From: a virus
IMG/VR virus record: IMGVR_UViG_3300032278_004244
Span: 1 to 42,990 of that record
Reading direction: 5' to 3' (one strand)
Length of the DNA: 42,990 bases
Shown: positions 7,167 through 42,042 of the stretch, piece by piece
Numbering within the stretch: position 1 is the first letter of the stretch
How the letters are laid out: every line of letters begins with the position of its first letter
Notes under the pieces: generated by a model
Databases searched by the model: none
What the model was told of the DNA's origin: nothing
Seen by the model: only the letters and a program-made list of their open reading frames with translations
Made by a program: the position numbers and the translations under genes

Positions 7167-8107
7167 CGGCCGACCCCGTACGCCTGGGCCCGCTCGGCCA
7201 CCGAGGCCGGCACGGCCGCGAGGTCCTCGACGTCGCGCGCCGCGGCGGCCCACCCCTCCGGCGGCGGCTCGAGCCCCTCGAGGTCTCCGGCCGGCGTAAC
7301 GACGGCCCGGCCCGCCTCGGCGGTCCCTCGGAGGATGGCCCGGATCGTGGAGCGGCACCGGTGGTGGTTCGGCGGGCTCGCGTAGCTCCAGAAGTCGTGG
7401 TCGGCCGGGAGGACCACGCCGTCGTAGCTGTTGCAGAGGTCGGTCGTCCGCTCGTCGCCGACCGCGACGTACTCGAGGTACTCCAGCGCGTCGCCGAGGG
7501 CCCGGAACTGGCGCCACCGGCCGACGCTGTACGCGACCTGGCTGTTGTTCCGGACGACGGTCTCGAGGAGCCACGGCGAGAGCGGGTCGACGCCGGCCGC
7601 TTCGAGCGCCTCCTGAATCACCTTGCCGCGGTCGCGGGCCGTGGCCCCGACCTCGATCGCCTCGGCCAGCGCGTCGCGGACCTCGGCGAGGACGTCGGCC
7701 CCGGTCACGCGCGCGATCGTGAACGCCCGCGTCCGCGCCGCGGCCTCGAGCGCGGCGAACTCGTCGTCGGTCATGGCCACGCGGGCCCGGAGCGCCTCGA
7801 CGGCCTCGGGGAAGGGGACGGCGCCCTCGCCGTCGAGGACGACGTCGGCGAAGTCGGACGAGGTCGACCGGCGCACGTGGTCCATCCCCAAGAGCGCAGC
7901 GACGACCATCGCGCCGGCGAGCTCGTCCTCGACCGCCTGGGCCGCGTCGTCGGGGAGGAGCGTCGCCGACGTGTCCGCGGACACACCCGCCGCGATCGCC
8001 GAGGCGGCCGCGGCCACGAACGGCCCGAGCGCCTCGGTCAGCTCGTCGGCGTAGTCCTCCTCCGAGGCCGGCCCGTCGGAGAACGTCCAAAAGGGGCGTC
8101 GCTGAAT
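7163..8107 (-). CDS. Mu gpF-like head morphogenesis protein
   Basis: The C-terminal half has the gpF/SPP1 gp7 signature: DERTTDLCNSYDGVVLP, then PPNHHRCRSTI (about residues 220-255 of 314). These Cys/His residues resemble a zinc-binding or ADP-ribosyltransferase-related site. Family members are minor head proteins added near the portal, consistent with the portal gene just upstream. The start is uncertain. No ATG or GTG precedes the conserved part; an ATT at 8107 has a GGAGG-like element just before it and gives a 70-bp overlap with portal. A CTG overlapping the portal stop is another option. The N-terminal region contains a VSADT palindrome. Confidence 0.75.
   Translation of the reverse strand: MQRRPFWTFSDGPASEEDYADELTEALGPFVAAAASAIAAGVSADTSATLLPDDAAQAVEDELAGAMVVAALLGMDHVRRSTSSDFADVVLDGEGAVPFPEAVEALRARVAMTDDEFAALEAAARTRAFTIARVTGADVLAEVRDALAEAIEVGATARDRGKVIQEALEAAGVDPLSPWLLETVVRNNSQVAYSVGRWRQFRALGDALEYLEYVAVGDERTTDLCNSYDGVVLPADHDFWSYASPPNHHRCRSTIRAILRGTAEAGRAVVTPAGDLEGLEPPPEGWAAAARDVEDLAAVPASVAERAQAYGVGR
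7971..7984. repeat. Dispersed palindrome GTGTCCGCGGACAC (copy 1)
   Basis: A perfect 14-bp palindrome inside the gpF gene that encodes V-S-A-D-T. Related copies are at 14448, 21091, 21154, 30475 and 41674. Confidence 0.8.
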
Positions 8108-12688: not shown

Positions 12689-13278
12689 AGCGCGTAGCGG
12701 CGGAGGAGGGCGAGGGCGACACCCGGCGCGTTGTCGGCGAGGAGCTGCCAGAGCCGGCTGTAGACGATGGAGTGGGCGTGGCCACGGACGGCGAGGTAGG
12801 CCACGTCGACCTCCTCCTGCGACAGCCCACTCGTGAGCTCGAGCACGCGGCGGAACGCCTCGTCAGCCATCAGGAGGCGGTGGGGGTCCCGGCCCGCCAG
12901 GTGGCGGAGCCAGTCGTGGGCGACGGCGGCCTCGGCCAGCGCGAGCGGGTCGACGTCGAAGACCGCGCAGACGGCGAGGCCGGCCCGGCCGACGGAGGCG
13001 AGGTCCGTACGGAACCCCTTGGGCACGGTGAACCGCTCGTGCTCGGCGTCGAGGCGGGCGTCGCGGCCGAGGTCGAACCGGCAGTCCTCGGCGACCGTGA
13101 ACGCGGCGCCGTCGAGTCGGCGGTCGAGCGTGAGGTCGAGCTCGTCGAGCCGGGCGAGCGACGGCCGTAGGCGGGCGACGGGGAGGGCCGCCTCGGGGAA
13201 CGCGTCGAGCGCGGTCGGGAGCGGCCGGACGCCCCGGGGCGTCACGCGGAGGAGTTCCGGCGGGAGAGCGACGCGCAT
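12685..13278 (-). CDS. DUF1353-family protein
   Basis: This 197-residue protein carries the DUF1353 signature: FTVPKGFRTDLASVG (about residues 87-101) and AAVAHDWLRHLAGRD further on, with a conserved His-Asp-Trp. DUF1353 proteins are common in tailed phages beside lysis or tail genes; their biochemical role is not settled. The gene is coupled by ATGA to the cupin gene upstream. Confidence 0.75.
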   Translation of the reverse strand: MRVALPPELLRVTPRGVRPLPTALDAFPEAALPVARLRPSLARLDELDLTLDRRLDGAAFTVAEDCRFDLGRDARLDAEHERFTVPKGFRTDLASVGRAGLAVCAVFDVDPLALAEAAVAHDWLRHLAGRDPHRLLMADEAFRRVLELTSGLSQEEVDVAYLAVRGHAHSIVYSRLWQLLADNAPGVALALLRRYAL

Positions 13279-13820
13279 CAGACGGCCTCCGGGTCGATCC
13301 CGTGGCGGCGGAGCATGGCGACGACGTCGGCCTCGGCGTACGCCGCCGGCGGCGGCGGGAGCGGGCTCCCCGGCTGGTAGAACCGGACCAGGAGGAGGCA
13401 CCCCTCGGGCCCGGCGACCGTCGCGTGCGGGACCTCCTGGGGGACGATGAAGTAGCCGCCCGGCGCGATCTCGTAGTCGTGGTACCGGGCCCCGTCGTCG
13501 GCCCGGCCGGGGAGCGTCCCGATCCGCATGGTCCCGTCCCCGCGCATGACCCAGACGTCCTCGTGGAAGCTGTGGACGTGGGGCCGGAGCTCGGCGCCGG
13601 GGGCGAACCGGAAGAGCCCGACGTACCACGCGTCGTCGGCGACGTCCTCGACGAGCCGGCCGGTCACGCCGTTGGCCGTCTCGGCCCACGCCTCGGTCAG
13701 GGCCACGGCGTCGATCCGGTCGGGGTACTCCATCTCGACCGACCAGAGGACGGCGTCGATCCGGTCGTTCGCCCGGTGGATCCGGTCGATGGCGTCGTCG
13801 GCGGTGGCGATCCCGAGCAT
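13278..13820 (-). CDS. Cupin-domain protein
   Basis: This 180-residue protein has a cupin barrel. Motif 1 is ELRPHVHSFHEDVWVMRGDG (HxH...HE, about residues 77-96), and motif 2 is APGGYFIVPQEVPHATVAG with a final His. A metal site of three His and one acidic residue is therefore plausible. It lies between DUF1353 and the holin candidate, with coupled starts. Cupins span many enzymes and sugar-binding proteins, so the substrate cannot be assigned; it is not a standard lysis gene. Confidence 0.75.
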   Translation of the reverse strand: MLGIATADDAIDRIHRANDRIDAVLWSVEMEYPDRIDAVALTEAWAETANGVTGRLVEDVADDAWYVGLFRFAPGAELRPHVHSFHEDVWVMRGDGTMRIGTLPGRADDGARYHDYEIAPGGYFIVPQEVPHATVAGPEGCLLLVRFYQPGSPLPPPPAAYAEADVVAMLRRHGIDPEAV

Positions 13821-33809: not shown

Positions 33810-33853
33810 GCGGCAAGAGTCGCGCGTAGTTGACAACTGCGCGGCAAGTGTCG
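33810..33853. promoter_or_regulatory. Divergent operator: direct repeats flanking a palindrome
   Basis: Direct repeats GCGGCAAGAGTCG (33810-33822) and GCGGCAAGTGTCG (33841-33853), differing at one base, sit either side of a 21-bp palindrome centred on A33833 with arms CGCG-x-AGTTG and CAACT-x-CGCG. The element lies between the repressor and Cro-like genes. It is likely a repressor/Cro binding region. Confidence 0.7.
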
Positions 33854-33859
33854 TACCCT
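33830..33859 (+). promoter_or_regulatory. Possible rightward early promoter
   Basis: TTGACA (33830-33835) and TACCCT (33854-33859) are separated by 18 bp, within the operator region. If the host is Bacteroidota-like, primary sigma does not use this consensus strictly, so the call is tentative. Confidence 0.35.
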
Positions 33860-33907
33860 ACGGACGGCACCCGCCAAAAGGTTACGCCGCCAGCCCAAGC
33901 CCCGCAA

Positions 33908-34162
33908 ATGGACCAGCCCACCCGCGACCGGATCGACCGCCTCCGCGGACTCAAGGCCAAGCGCCCCCCGCTCACGCACGCCGAGATCGCCGCGGCCTCG
34001 CCCTACACCGAGGCCTACGTCAAGGCCGTGCTCAACGGCCGGGACCTCCCGGTCGAGCCCGGCCCGACGCTCGACCGGATCGAGGCCGCGATCGGGAAGG
34101 CCCGGCGCGAGCAGCGCCCGGTCGAAGACCGCCACGGCCGCGGCTTCGCCGTCGCCGGATAG
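33908..34162 (+). CDS. Cro-like HTH protein
   Basis: This 84-residue protein has a helix-turn-helix at residues 22-45 (LTHAEIAAASPYTEAYVKAVLNGRD), then IEAAIGKARREQRPVEDRHG. It is the first rightward gene from the operator, opposite the CI-like repressor: the Cro position. The ATG at 33908 was chosen as the first ATG after the operator; a longer frame begins inside the operator and was rejected. Confidence 0.7.
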   Translation: MDQPTRDRIDRLRGLKAKRPPLTHAEIAAASPYTEAYVKAVLNGRDLPVEPGPTLDRIEAAIGKARREQRPVEDRHGRGFAVAG

Positions 34163-35227: not shown

Positions 35228-35484
35228 ACGGCACGCCGACCCCGCCCATCCTCCGGGTCTACCGCGCGAACGGGGCCTACGAGATCGCCCACCTCGCGCT
35301 CGACGGCCCGCCTGCCGACCTCGCCCGCCAGCTCGACCGGGCCTCCTACACCGTCGAGCGCCAGGGGGCCCGCCGGTACCCCACCGAGCACGTCGCCTCC
35401 GACGTGGCCACGCTCGTCCGGAACGGGTGGGTCCACGCCTTCTGCTTCGACTGCCAGCCCCGAGACCCCCGCCGCCATGTCTGA
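35224..35484 (+). CDS. Small hypothetical early protein
   Basis: This 86-residue protein (VNGTPTPPILRVYRANGAYE, then LARQLDRASYTVERQGARRY) ends with a Cys pair (AFCFDCQPRD). It is GTG-initiated and overlaps the gene before it by four bases and Bet by eight. Position before the recombinase suggests a recombination or replication accessory. No family was recognised. Confidence 0.6.
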   Translation: MNGTPTPPILRVYRANGAYEIAHLALDGPPADLARQLDRASYTVERQGARRYPTEHVASDVATLVRNGWVHAFCFDCQPRDPRRHV

Positions 35485-36517
35485 GAACACCGCCCTCCAG
35501 CGCGTCGAGACGGGCGCGCCGGCCCCCGCGCCGGCCCCGTCCTCGAACGCCCTCATCACGTTCGACCGCGAGCAGCTCGACGTCCTCAAGTCGACCGTCG
35601 CCTCTGGCACGTCCGACGCCGAGTTCGCCCTGTTCGTCCAGGTCTGCCAGTCGACCGGGCTCAACCCGTTCCAGCGCCAGATCTACGCGATCGTCCGCGA
35701 CACGTGGAACCCGCAGACGCGGCAGAAGGAGCCGAAGATGACGATCCAGACCGGGATCGACGGCTACCGCCTCATCGCGGCGAGGACCGGCCAGCACGCG
35801 GGGACCGACGACGCCGTGTTCGGGCCCGAGGACGACGCCGGGCACCCGGCCTGGGCCCAGGTCACCGTCTACCGGTTCCTCCCCAACGGCTACAAGGCCC
35901 CGTTTACCGCGACGGCCCGGTGGTCCGAGTACTGCCAGTCGACGCGGGACGGGAAGCTGACGGGGATGTGGTCGAACATGCCGTACGGCCAGCTCGCGAA
36001 GTGCGCCGAGTCGCTGGCGCTGCGGAAGGCGTTCCCGGCCGAGCTCTCGGGCGTGTACACGCGGGAGGAGATGGCGCAGGCCGACAGCGAGGAGGCCGAG
36101 GTCGTCTCCGAGCGGTCCCGTCCGCCTCGGCGCCGAGGCGGGGAGGGCCGAGGCCAGGGCGGCCGCCGCGGCTACCCGGGCGAGTCGCTCCACGCCGGCC
36201 CGACGCCGGAGGAGGTCGAGGCCGCGCGCCAGGCGAAGGGCCAGGCCGCCCCGGCGTCCGCGCCGACCCAGGCGGAGATCATGGCCGAGCTCGTCGCCGC
36301 GCTCGACGCCGTCGAGGCCGCGCGGCTGGACGGCGACCCGGCCGAGGTCTGCATGGAGCCCGTCGACCTCCTCGTCTCGTCCGTCCGGGGCTGGCCCGAG
36401 GCCGCCCTCGACTTCGCCCGCCGCTGCGGCCGGGAGGTCTGCCGGGGCGAGGAGCCGCGGCTGGCCATCCGGAAGGTCTCCGACGAGGTCAAGGCCGAGG
36501 CGGCCGCCGCCAGCTGA
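35477..36517 (+). CDS. bet: Bet/RecT-family single-strand annealing recombinase
   Basis: This 346-residue protein matches the Bet family in residues 25-200: FVQVCQSTGLNPFQRQIYAI, MTIQTGIDGYRLIAARTGQH and ARWSEYCQSTRDGKLTGMWS, with YGQLAKCAESLALRKAFPAEL at the end of the core. It anneals complementary single strands during phage recombination. A low-complexity Arg/Gly linker (210-235) leads to a further helical C-terminus. No partner exonuclease or SSB was seen in the window; it may lie to the right. Confidence 0.85.
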   Translation: MSENTALQRVETGAPAPAPAPSSNALITFDREQLDVLKSTVASGTSDAEFALFVQVCQSTGLNPFQRQIYAIVRDTWNPQTRQKEPKMTIQTGIDGYRLIAARTGQHAGTDDAVFGPEDDAGHPAWAQVTVYRFLPNGYKAPFTATARWSEYCQSTRDGKLTGMWSNMPYGQLAKCAESLALRKAFPAELSGVYTREEMAQADSEEAEVVSERSRPPRRRGGEGRGQGGRRGYPGESLHAGPTPEEVEAARQAKGQAAPASAPTQAEIMAELVAALDAVEAARLDGDPAEVCMEPVDLLVSSVRGWPEAALDFARRCGREVCRGEEPRLAIRKVSDEVKAEAAAAS

Positions 36518-36521
36518 ACCC

Positions 36522-37673
36522 GTGCTCTCCCTCATCCTCAGCCTCGCCCTCGTGGCCGCCAGTCCCTACGTCGCGCCCGGCCTCTACCAGGCCCCCCACC
36601 GGTTCCCCGACGAGCTCATGGCCGACCCCGACGTCCCCGACTGGGCGAAGGTCGTGTGGTGCGCCGTCCGGAAGGTCCAGGCCAACAACGACCGGGCCTG
36701 GGGCGAGGCCGCGTACTACGCCGACCTCTGCGCCAAGTCGCCCGCCCAGGTCCGCAACGGGATCGCGCTCCTCCGCCGCGGCGGGTGGCTCGTCGAGGTC
36801 GGCCGGCGCGGCCGCTCGCCCGAGCTCCGGTGTTACGCCCCGGCCCTCTCGCCGGACGAGGCCGAGGCCGTCGAGCGCAACGAGGGGTTGCGCGAGCCCG
36901 CCCCGGATGTGCAAACGCTCATTGCAGATCGGGCGCCAGAAGCGCAAACGCTCATTGCGCGAGACGACGGAAGTGCAACTGGTGATTGCGCTGAGTGCAA
37001 TGAGGGTTTGCACACCCCCACACCCCCTAATAAGGAACAAGCCTGTCAGGAAGCCGGGATGGGGGATGACGCCGCGCGGGCGCGGGCGCGCGAGGCCCTG
37101 GCCGCCTGGTCGATCTCGAAGCCCGCCGTCGTCGCCGAGGCCGAGGACCGGGCCGAGGCCGGCCGGCCCGACGCCCAGCTCGTCCGGAACGCCCTCCGCC
37201 TCGGGCTCACCGGCCGCCCCCCCGTCGCCGTCGCCGACGCGCTCGACGCGCTCGACGCCCCGGCCGCCGCCGCGCTCGCCGTGGCCACGCTCCGGACCGC
37301 CCGCTCGAAGTCGCCCGACGGCCGCGCCCGCTACCTCCTCTCCCTCGCCGCATCCCTCCAGAGCCATGACACCGAACGCCGATACGCCGACGCCCACCCC
37401 GGACCCGCAGCCGATCCCGCCGAGGGCGGAGGTCGAGGCCCGGTGGGCCGCGCGGGAGCAGAAGCTGGCGGCCCGGACGGACCGGGCGAGGGAGTCGGTC
37501 CGCGACGCGCTCTCGCGGTTCGCGGAGCCGGCGGCGACGACCGCCGTCTCTCGGCCGCCGAGCGCCGGGGCCAGTTCGGCCCCCAGCGTGGGGCGGAGCT
37601 CCTCGCCGCTACCCGTCGTCTCCGCGAACAGCGCGAGGGCGATGGTGGAGCGGGCGACGGTCCAGGACGCTGA
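36522..37673 (+). CDS. Phage replication initiator (lambda O-like), carries iterons
   Basis: The N-terminal part (residues 20-106) is a winged-helix replication domain: QAPHRFPDELMADPDVPDWA, KVVWCAVRKVQANNDRAWGE and AKSPAQVRNGIALLRRGGWLVEV. Residues 115-165 form a linker encoded by five palindromic iterons, as in lambda O, so the protein likely binds its own gene to open the origin. The C-terminal part is helical (ALAAWSISKPAVVAEAEDRAE). The last third (from about 37366) overlaps the next gene in another frame and shows weaker codon bias. It starts at GTG. Confidence 0.75.
   Translation: MLSLILSLALVAASPYVAPGLYQAPHRFPDELMADPDVPDWAKVVWCAVRKVQANNDRAWGEAAYYADLCAKSPAQVRNGIALLRRGGWLVEVGRRGRSPELRCYAPALSPDEAEAVERNEGLREPAPDVQTLIADRAPEAQTLIARDDGSATGDCAECNEGLHTPTPPNKEQACQEAGMGDDAARARAREALAAWSISKPAVVAEAEDRAEAGRPDAQLVRNALRLGLTGRPPVAVADALDALDAPAAAALAVATLRTARSKSPDGRARYLLSLAASLQSHDTERRYADAHPGPAADPAEGGGRGPVGRAGAEAGGPDGPGEGVGPRRALAVRGAGGDDRRLSAAERRGQFGPQRGAELLAATRRLREQREGDGGAGDGPGR
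36875..37013. repeat. Replication origin: five palindromic iterons
   Basis: Five 19-bp units have the form RYGCAA-N7-TTGCRY or a close variant, at 36875-36893, 36909-36927, 36942-36960, 36973-36991 and 36995-37013. Arms are G(C/T)GCAA and TTGC(G/A)(C/G). Two share the full ACGCTCA centre. Centre spacings are 34, 33, 31 and 22 bp. A relatively A/T-rich tract (CCCCTAATAAGGAACAAG) follows at about 37023. The site lies inside the O-like gene, as the lambda ori does. Confidence 0.85.
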
Positions 37674-38136
37674 GGAGGCCGTGGTCGCCGTCATGAGCGC
37701 GCTCGGGCACGAGATGGCCCCCGACCGGATCGGCTACGTCGCCGAGATCGTCGCGGCCGGCGACTGGACCCGGGCCGAGATCCGGGCCACCGTCAACGTC
37801 CTCGCCCGCGACACGAAGCTCCGCGACCACATCCGGTTCGGCGGGACCATCACGCCGGCCGACTTCGAGGGCGCCCGCTCCGGCGAGGACCGGACCGAGC
37901 GGGGGGCGGACGGCGGGCCCGACCGCGTGATCACGACGCTCCGCGGGTTCGCGCTCAAGGTCCGCCGGAACCGGCTGTACTCGTTCGCCGAGGCGCGGGG
38001 GCTGTGGGACGCCGCCGGCCAGCCGGGGAAGCTGTCCGACCACGTCCTGGCCGACGGGACGCTCAAGGTCGAGCCGACCGCCATGTTCACCGTCGTCGAG
38101 GTCGAGGGGACCGGGCGGCGCTTCCGACTCAAGTAG
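37366..38136 (+). CDS. Replication-region protein (P position), unrecognised
   Basis: This 256-residue protein starts MTPNADTPTPTPDPQPIPPR, is disordered to about residue 90, then has a compact domain (VVAVMSALGHEMAPDRIGYV, then VNVLARDTKLRDHIRFGGTI) and ends FTVVEVEGTGRRFRLK. It follows the O-like gene, so a helicase-loader role like lambda P is a positional guess only. Codon bias supports the ATG at 37366, giving a 308-bp overlap with the O frame; ATG 37642 is the alternative. Confidence 0.6.
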   Translation: MTPNADTPTPTPDPQPIPPRAEVEARWAAREQKLAARTDRARESVRDALSRFAEPAATTAVSRPPSAGASSAPSVGRSSSPLPVVSANSARAMVERATVQDAEEAVVAVMSALGHEMAPDRIGYVAEIVAAGDWTRAEIRATVNVLARDTKLRDHIRFGGTITPADFEGARSGEDRTERGADGGPDRVITTLRGFALKVRRNRLYSFAEARGLWDAAGQPGKLSDHVLADGTLKVEPTAMFTVVEVEGTGRRFRLK

Positions 38137-39456: not shown

Positions 39457-42042
39457 ATGCCCACCGTCTACGTCCCCCTCGACCGAGTCCTCGACTCGCC
39501 CTTTCAGACCCGGTCGCACTACGACCTCGAGGCCGTCGCCGAGCTGGCGGACTCGATCGAGCGCGACGGCCAGCTCCAGACGCCGGTCGCGCGCCTGATC
39601 GACACGGACAACCGCACGATGCACGAGCGGTCGTACAAGGCCGCTCGGACCGTTCTCGATCACGACGCCTGGATGGTCAAGTCCGACCTCCGCGTCCAGC
39701 TCGCCTACGGCCACACCCGGGCCCGGGCCTGGAAGCTGATCTGGGAGCGCGCCGCCGCGCCCGACCAGGTCGGGCGCGGCCCCGCCGGCGTCCCCCCGGG
39801 CACGATGCCGGTCGAGCTCCGGCCCCTCACCGACGACGCCATGGAGCGCCTGGCGTGGGAGGAGAACGAGCGCCGGCGGGACCTCGACCCCGTCGACCGG
39901 GCCGCGGCGATCGCCAGCAGGATCGAGCGCCACGGGTGGACGCACGAGGAGGCCGGCGAGGCGCTCGGGCTCGACCGCTCGACGGTGTCCAACATCCTCC
40001 GGTGGTACGAGGCGTTCTCGGCCGACGAGACCGGCGCCGGCGAGTCCGCGCTCGAGGCCATGCGCGACGGGCGGCTCAGCGAATCGAAGGCGCGCGCGCT
40101 CGTCCGGCTCTTCGACGCCCACCGGGAGCACGCCACGATCGTGGCCGGGCTCGTCGAGGAGGGCTTCGCATTCGAGCTCCGGACGGTCGTCGAGTACGCC
40201 GCCGAGGTCGAGTCGGCCGCCTCGGTCCGGTCGCGGGTCGAGACGGAGATGGGGCAGATCGAGGCCGAGGTCGAGGCGGAGCGGAAGCGGCGCGAGCCGG
40301 GGATGTTCGACGACGCGCCCGAGGCGAACGCGCTGACGATCGGAGGGGAGAGGTTCGTCGACTCCGCTACGGGAGAGCCAGTCACGGAACACGGCCAGAT
40401 GGAGGTCGGGCGCAGTTACGTACCAGAGTCGAGGTACGCCCATTTGCCGGACGCCCCGGGACTCGACTCGGCGGAGTGGATCCTGAGCGAGCTGCGGGCC
40501 CGTTCCGGGGGCGCCCACAGCAACTCGGTCCCCGACGTCCGAGCCGCGATCGCGCGCCTTGTTGGACTCCAGGTCGAGTCGGACATCCTGATTGCGAGGG
40601 CAGAGGGGGCGGGCGACGTGCCAGGGTCGGCGGTAATCGGGACGCTCCGGTCTGCCCGGAAGGAAGTCCACGACGCGATCGGCGAAGCTGACGCCAGGCT
40701 CCGAGAACTCGAGGGGAACGTCGACGGCTACGACGACGGCGGGGCTGGGCTCCGGCGCGCGGCCGAGGCCCAGGGGCTCGAGCCGTTCGGCCAAGACGAC
40801 GACGGGGACGACGGGCCGATCATGGTCCCGTATCGCTACTACGACCAGGTCGTCCTGGTCGAGTCCGTCGACGGGTTCCACCACGCCGGCCAGAACTACG
40901 AGGTCTGCCTCTCGGTCGTCCACGTCCGCGACGACGGCTCGGTCGCACAAGGCCACCAGTTCAGCGTCGTCGACGCGGCCGGGGCCATCGTCGTGCACAC
41001 GTGGCCGACCATCGAGGACGCGATCGAACGCGCCCGGCAGAAGCTCGACGAGCAGCTCGAGGCGGCCGGCCCCGGCGAGACGGCGGAGGAGGCCGGCTTC
41101 GACGAGGACCTCGAAGCCCTCGCCGACGAGCTGGCGGAGCCGGCCGACGTTGAGCTCGACTTCTGGCCGCCGGTCCGGACGCCCGACGTCTGGGACGCGA
41201 TCGACGGGATGACGGTGGCCGAGCTCGACGAGGCCTACCACACCTACGCGCTCCCCGTCTTCGTCCGCTACGCCGGGTACTACCAGACATCGCAGCTCAA
41301 GCCCGCGAAGCAGGAGCTCGTCCGCCGCGTCGTCCGTCACAACGCCGACCTCGCGGCCGTCCATCGCCTGACCGACGAGCACCTCGCCATGTTCGGCGAG
41401 TGGTTCGACAGACTGTTCGCCGAGGACAGCGTGTACAGCACGATCACTCAGCGCTCGCGGCGGCACCGGTCGATCCGGACCGGGGCGTTCCGCGACTGGG
41501 GCAAGGGGTGGTACGAGAACGTCCGCTACGCGGGCGAGCTCGCCGGCACCTACGACGCCGCGGCGGAGATCGGGCTGATGACGGCCGGCGAGCTGGCGGC
41601 CCTCAAGCGCGAGACGTACCGGCTGGCCGCGTCGTTCTGCTACTCACTATTCCTGGAGCGGCGCGCGGCCGACGTGTCCGCGGACACGTCGCCCGAGGCG
41701 GAGCCCTCCGGGCCGATCGGGAAGGGGGGCCTTACGGCGCCCGGTGGTGACGCCTCCCCTCCGGAGGGCTCCGCTGGCGGGGAGGATAACGGCGACGAGC
41801 CAAACGGCGGTAGTGCCGAGGGCCCGCCGCTCACGCTCGTCCAGCTCGAGAGGCTGTTCAGCGGCGACGCCGAGCTCGCGGCCACGCTCGACGCCGCCGC
41901 GCTCGACTACGCGTTCATGCGGGCGGTCGAGCGGCGGCTCCCCGTCGAGTCCCGCCAGATGCTGAGCGAGTGGGTCGAGGAGGCCGAGACGCGCGAGGCC
42001 GCCCGCCTCGACGAGCCCGCCGAGGCGGAGGTCCCGGCATGA
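39457..42042 (+). CDS. ParB-like protein with large C-terminal extension
   Basis: The first 260 residues match ParB/Spo0J: SPFQTRSHYDLEAVAELADS (box 1), YGHTRARAWKLI (near 84-95, equivalent to GERRxRA), WEENERRRDLDPVDRAAAIA (near 134-153), and a helix-turn-helix WTHEEAGEALGLDRSTVSNI (161-180). The rest, to 861 residues, is extra. Residues about 290-425 show less biased codons, like an inserted segment. A VSADT palindrome lies in a disordered linker near residue 745. It may act in DNA partition or as a regulator; many phage ParB-like proteins are not partition proteins. Confidence 0.75.
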   Translation: MPTVYVPLDRVLDSPFQTRSHYDLEAVAELADSIERDGQLQTPVARLIDTDNRTMHERSYKAARTVLDHDAWMVKSDLRVQLAYGHTRARAWKLIWERAAAPDQVGRGPAGVPPGTMPVELRPLTDDAMERLAWEENERRRDLDPVDRAAAIASRIERHGWTHEEAGEALGLDRSTVSNILRWYEAFSADETGAGESALEAMRDGRLSESKARALVRLFDAHREHATIVAGLVEEGFAFELRTVVEYAAEVESAASVRSRVETEMGQIEAEVEAERKRREPGMFDDAPEANALTIGGERFVDSATGEPVTEHGQMEVGRSYVPESRYAHLPDAPGLDSAEWILSELRARSGGAHSNSVPDVRAAIARLVGLQVESDILIARAEGAGDVPGSAVIGTLRSARKEVHDAIGEADARLRELEGNVDGYDDGGAGLRRAAEAQGLEPFGQDDDGDDGPIMVPYRYYDQVVLVESVDGFHHAGQNYEVCLSVVHVRDDGSVAQGHQFSVVDAAGAIVVHTWPTIEDAIERARQKLDEQLEAAGPGETAEEAGFDEDLEALADELAEPADVELDFWPPVRTPDVWDAIDGMTVAELDEAYHTYALPVFVRYAGYYQTSQLKPAKQELVRRVVRHNADLAAVHRLTDEHLAMFGEWFDRLFAEDSVYSTITQRSRRHRSIRTGAFRDWGKGWYENVRYAGELAGTYDAAAEIGLMTAGELAALKRETYRLAASFCYSLFLERRAADVSADTSPEAEPSGPIGKGGLTAPGGDASPPEGSAGGEDNGDEPNGGSAEGPPLTLVQLERLFSGDAELAATLDAAALDYAFMRAVERRLPVESRQMLSEWVEEAETREAARLDEPAEAEVPA
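41674..41687. repeat. Dispersed palindrome GTGTCCGCGGACAC (copy 6)
   Basis: A perfect copy on the rightward strand, in the low-complexity linker of the ParB-like gene, again read as V-S-A-D-T. Confidence 0.8.

Follow-up and report, generated by a model that had tools for sequence, protein, structure and literature searches.

A probable lambda-like replication origin within the gene of an HTH_36-like initiator in a high-GC phage

The early region of a very GC-rich phage, which was analysed here over its whole record of 42,990 bp (referred to as the window), raises the question of whether five palindromes lying within a single gene form the origin of phage replication, and whether the protein encoded by the same gene acts on them. 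Such an arrangement has a precedent in phage lambda, whose iterons, inverted repeats of 19 bp bound by O dimers, occupy the central part of the O gene next to an AT-rich region, and in which extra iterons, as found in Stx phages, simply lengthen the O protein (PMC7466680, PMC5043065). A preliminary description of this DNA had already proposed a lambda-type origin arrangement within an O-like gene. The arrangement is supported by the architecture of the gene, its base composition, the operon context and independent parallels in other genomes, each of which is discussed below, together with the parts of the proposal that had to be revised.

Palindromes selected as DNA

The five palindromes, each 19 bp in length, are located between 36875 and 37013 with centre spacings of 34, 33, 31 and 22 bp, exactly as had been claimed. 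Four of them fit the consensus GYGCAA-N7-TTGCRC without exception, namely iteron 1 (GCGCAACGAGGGGTTGCGC, 36875–36893), iteron 3 (GCGCAAACGCTCATTGCGC, 36942–36960), iteron 4 (GTGCAACTGGTGATTGCGC, 36973–36991) and iteron 5 (GTGCAATGAGGGTTTGCAC, 36995–37013), while iteron 2 (GTGCAAACGCTCATTGCAG, 36909–36927) carries one flank mismatch, TTGCAG. The shorter pattern GCAA-N7-TTGC occurs five times in the window, every time within this segment, compared with a mean of 0.03 and a largest count of 1 per record in dinucleotide shuffles of the record. When the initiator gene was re-coded synonymously 20,000 times according to the codon usage of the phage, 19,771 versions contained no site and the remaining 229 contained a single one, which was the maximum; permutation of the gene's own codons yielded at most three sites.

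The starts of the iterons are spread over all three codon positions, and the peptides encoded at iterons 1 to 5 are RNEGLR, QTLIA, QTLIA, SATGDCA and CNEGLH, respectively. The double occurrence of QTLIA in the iteron linker, which had been pointed out before and was confirmed from the translation, arises because iterons 2 and 3 share a frame. Since the iterons make use of all three reading frames, they are not explained by the protein, and the segment is clearly under selection at the DNA level rather than at the protein level. The N7 cores read ACGCTCA at sites 2 and 3, ACCCTCA at site 5 (reversed) and CCCCTCG at site 1 (reversed), showing a C-rich/G-rich asymmetry common to four of the five iterons, with site 4 (CTGGTGA) as the exception. 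An orientation preference inside a nearly symmetric iteron is a possible reading of this asymmetry, for which five sites are no proof. The helical phasing of the five iterons was not significant (p about 0.11).

The base composition sets the same segment apart. Only over the iterons does third-position GC drop, to about 0.6; it is 0.97–1.00 in the flanks of the same gene and 0.98 across 16 further genes of the phage. With 45% AT vs. a phage mean of 25%, the 100-bp stretch starting at 36953 is the richest in AT, and scans of nearest-neighbour stability and AT content located the least stable 100-bp duplex of the phage at 36970–37069, a candidate unwinding region. This low-stability stretch covers iterons 3–5 plus DNA beyond them (iterons 4 and 5 in the case of the 36970–37069 interval). 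The preliminary description had placed an A/T-rich tract after the iterons. This holds in a modest form: the 100-bp maxima of AT content and of instability do fall at the array, but they overlap the iterons, and the clean AT-rich tract beyond iteron 5, beginning at 37023, is only some 30 bp long and ranks sixth in the phage.

A divergent initiator in a conserved early operon

The palindromes lie in the open reading frame of the replication initiator (36522–37673, plus strand), which spans 383 aa and carries a coding signal to near 37365, corresponding to about 281 aa. Third-position GC in this frame stays at about 1.0 until ~37360, after which the coding signal is found in the frame of the next gene, into which the initiator frame runs for 308 bp (37366–37673). 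Were the initiator in a different frame at this point, the ATGA at 37366 would have the form typical of a coupled stop/start. The overrun may be due either to an indel introduced by sequencing or to a genuine overlap of the two genes over a long stretch.

Against Pfam and PHROG, the initiator gave no match better than chance. A custom profile was built from the HTH_36 domains of the genes surveyed below, and the first 115 residues of the initiator were used as the query, revealing an HTH_36-like winged-helix domain at residues 32–98 (36615–36815, plus strand) that is presumed to bind the iterons. The match scored 16.1 bits, with 7.6 bits for the best of 2000 shuffles, and hhalign assigned a probability of 94% to the alignment of residues 33–97 with the HTH_36 profile. 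The initiator was absent from the matches of the Pfam HTH_36 model (PF13730) up to an E-value of 5, and it had no match to Phage_rep_O (PF04492) up to an E-value of 1, a model that lambda O matches at 5.7e-36; pairwise BLAST between the initiator and lambda O gave an E-value of 0.79. By these sequence comparisons, the initiator is classed as a divergent HTH_36 winged-helix protein (PF13730-like) and not as a member of the lambda O (PF04492) family. The earlier term "O-like" holds for function and layout; it does not hold for the family.

Iteron 1 starts at residue 118, i.e., about 20–22 codons past the end of the HTH_36-like domain at residue 98. The C-terminal region of the initiator (37062–37364, plus strand, about residues 181–281), in which third-position GC is again about 1.0, is presumed to contact the helicase or its loader. 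No close homologues of the initiator were found in the viral contigs, species genomes and annotated phages searched. Structure prediction without an alignment, carried out for the initiator and a second protein, gave pLDDT values of 42 and 51, which are too poor for use. Weak matches to TAL effector repeat proteins in a search of PDB sequences (best E 0.0022) were dismissed as compositional chance.

Directly 5′ of the initiator, the phage encodes a RecT-family ssDNA annealing protein (35477–36517, plus strand; PF03837, 1.5e-30). A search with this RecT led to L143, a 36-kb viral contig with a RecT 58% identical to that of the phage, followed by an unlike initiator-like gene, a DnaC/IstB-like AAA protein, and homologues of the phage genes 38141–39445 (segments at 49% and 35% identity) and 39457–42042 (46% identity in the N-terminal part). 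The phage and L143 have in common a module consisting of RecT, initiator, loader slot and two more genes; a terminase was looked for in L143 and none was found, the part common to both being the early operon. Because the loader follows the initiator in L143, the phage gene at 37366–38136 (plus strand) is assigned to the loader slot by position only, and its product, for which no Pfam or PHROG match was found, may on this positional ground act as a helicase loader.

The initiator-like gene of L143 is unrelated in sequence to the phage initiator. Its middle contains nine GGAACG words (7411–7543), mostly in steps of 10–11 bp, and the repeat array shows a dip in third-position GC like that of the phage initiator, being likely a direct-repeat origin of a different type. 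One spot in a conserved early operon appears to accommodate two non-homologous initiators, each bringing its own repeats, and the comparison of the phage with L143 shows the putative origin and the initiator being exchanged jointly at this single position, the rest of the operon being conserved.

Several other features of the phage were observed. The gene at 39457–42042 encodes a ParB-like protein of 861 aa with ParB_N and HTH_ParB matches and a long C-terminal part without assignment. The second most AT-rich region of the phage (33540–33800) is located between the leftward structural and the rightward early genes and adjoins a weak HTH_31 match (33830–34162), likely representing the immunity region and a divergent promoter, and the cumulative GC skew has its maximum at 33850. 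A Cupin_7-like protein (13278–13820, 1.5e-9) is an unusual cargo amid the structural genes. The Mu/P2-type virion that had been suggested was borne out by PHROG matches to a baseplate wedge, a sheath and other head and tail proteins, confirming a contractile tail.

Arrays in other genes and other readings of the palindromes

Pattern scans of viral contigs revealed three HTH-domain genes of the HTH_36 type with GCAA-N7-TTGC arrays just past the domain (L018/L196, L021/L194 and L152/L202). The complete copy of the L018 gene is found in L196, and L021 and L152 pair with L194 and L202, respectively. BLAST detected no relatedness of these genes to the phage initiator, and only a weak match between L018 and L021 (E 0.002–0.007). 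A DnaB helicase is encoded downstream in L194 and L202, within two genes, as well as downstream in L261, and an AAA/DnaA-like protein is encoded downstream of the iteron-bearing gene in L196; for L240, one of the surveyed genes, DNA matches were obtained to phage genes whose annotation reads DNA replication protein O. Of the contigs compared, these three carry the GCAA-N7-TTGC pattern in their HTH genes, and L143 lacks it. The other matches of the scan were mostly tandem protein repeats, pentapeptide-repeat genes and arrays that code for little or nothing, and thus the GCAA-N7-TTGC pattern alone is not diagnostic. A scan of genomes for triple GCAA-N7-TTGC arrays returned tandem repeats, with no winged-helix case among the matches listed. 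Clusters of a related kind, GCAAC-N5-GTTGC palindromes in L007, L009, L012 and L013, lie mostly outside long ORFs and adjoin HTH_3-like (MTHEEV...) proteins; they look like an operator family, in contrast to the intragenic arrays.

HTH_36 genes were surveyed using matches from the genomes of three phyla, with a minimum length of 150 aa per gene and no selection on repeats, the centre genomes of the three draws having come from the earlier GCAA-N7-TTGC pattern scan. Palindrome or 9-mer arrays in each gene were evaluated against 150 permutations of its synonymous codons. Significant intragenic arrays were found in 17 of 48 HTH_36 genes, a sample that includes some short genes that are not initiators, and in none of 41 neighbouring ORFs, which were picked by length only, one per locus. 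The arrays begin 6–64 codons past the HTH_36 domain, and 20–40 codons past it in most cases, with nearly all of them located 20–75 codons from the domain. The 17 positives are not fully independent, because related genes occur more than once in some genomes, several of the positives coming from G367. Lambda O, included as a positive control, scored positive in the palindrome part of this test, at residues 116–131. The survey suggests that the lambda-type layout is common in the HTH_36 initiator family, in which the origin may frequently follow the DNA-binding domain directly, a feature that may be less well known. In a search of the open-access literature, no paper was found that states a general rule of intragenic origins for HTH_36 initiators.

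These parallels also bear on other explanations of the palindromes. It is improbable that they serve, in place of an origin, as operators for transcriptional control of the early operon by the winged-helix protein or by some other regulator. Winged-helix proteins are often regulators, and largely or wholly non-coding GCAA-type clusters adjoin HTH_3-like genes elsewhere, e.g., in L007 and L013. However, the phage iterons are embedded centrally in coding sequence, some 350 bp into the initiator gene, and no sigma-70-like promoter was found nearby in a scan limited to this promoter type. In addition, parallel genes with the same layout precede a DnaB helicase or match replication protein O genes. 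Even less probable is a role as parS-like partition sites for the ParB-like protein, although ParB sites are palindromic and the 861-aa protein with its ParB_N and HTH_ParB matches is encoded 2.5 kb downstream. L143 retains the 46% identical ParB-like N-terminal part, yet its 36-kb record contains no GCAA-N7-TTGC site, which counts against the palindromes as ParB sites; moreover, such sites come after the initiator's own winged helix in three other contigs, and no ParA was found among the genes scanned. The idea of a protein-level feature, i.e., a repetitive linker with incidentally repetitive DNA, could appeal to the doubled QTLIA, but it is refuted by five sites in all three frames with differing peptides and by the loss of the sites upon synonymous re-coding, leaving it hardly any probability.

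The proposed origin and known replication systems

We estimate a probability of about 0.87 that the five-iteron segment is the replication origin of the phage, located within the initiator gene in the manner of lambda, where we infer initiator binding and initiation to take place. In this proposal, the N-terminal HTH_36-like winged helix would bind each of the five iterons, probably as a dimer, and the bound array would wrap and strain the DNA, leading to opening of the adjacent AT-richer stretch of low stability (about 36970–37069). The C-terminal part of the initiator, alone or together with the 37366–38136 product, would then recruit the replicative helicase of the host to the opened stretch. 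At the same time, the iterons would code for a tolerant linker between the two domains of the initiator.

It is moderately probable that initiator and origin constitute one cassette, made up of a DNA-binding domain, an iteron linker and a recruiting C-terminus, which is swapped between related early operons, and that HTH_36-type initiators of phages, prophages and plasmids have this layout as a rule. If this cassette rule is true, origins could be read directly from the gene and the layout would not be peculiar to lambdoid phages. With the lambda arrangement indicated by the survey to be common in a different winged-helix family, origins, and perhaps initiator specificities, might become predictable from sequence alone. 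For the phage itself, which has not been studied before, the segment provides a directly testable origin candidate.

Related layouts are known from plasmids. The Rep protein of the staphylococcal plasmid pPR9 sustains autonomous replication and carries an N-terminal pfam13730 domain akin to a phage replication protein (PMC5703833). An N-terminal winged helix of this type is common to the phage initiator and the HTH_36 initiators, i.e., phage replication proteins and pPR9 Rep; however, the phage domain is too divergent for the Pfam model, requiring a custom profile, and the phage is very GC-rich. In pSK41 Rep, of the RepA_N family, the winged HTH at the N-terminus recognises four boxes located centrally within rep, and the part encoded by the ori is a dispensable linker from the DNA-binding to the C-terminal domain (PMC5703833). 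In contrast to the phage initiator, pSK41 Rep has another domain family and belongs to a low-GC plasmid, and no relatedness between the two was found.

A close likeness is also seen to lambda. The proposed phage origin would work like lambda ori, with an initiator outside the lambda O family that is unrelated to O in sequence. The half-sites differ (GCAA..TTGC in the phage vs. TCCC..GGGA in lambda), as do the number and spacing of the iterons, with five at 22–34 bp between centres in the phage and four at 20–24 bp in lambda. Lambda ori has an AT-rich region on one side, whereas the phage tract outside the iterons is shorter, and the helicase-loader gene downstream of lambda O may have a positional counterpart in a phage gene that is not lambda P by sequence. 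What the two systems have in common is a set of iterons, each an inverted repeat of 19 bp, within the initiator gene, placed after the N-terminal DNA-binding domain, running through several reading frames and encoding a linker.
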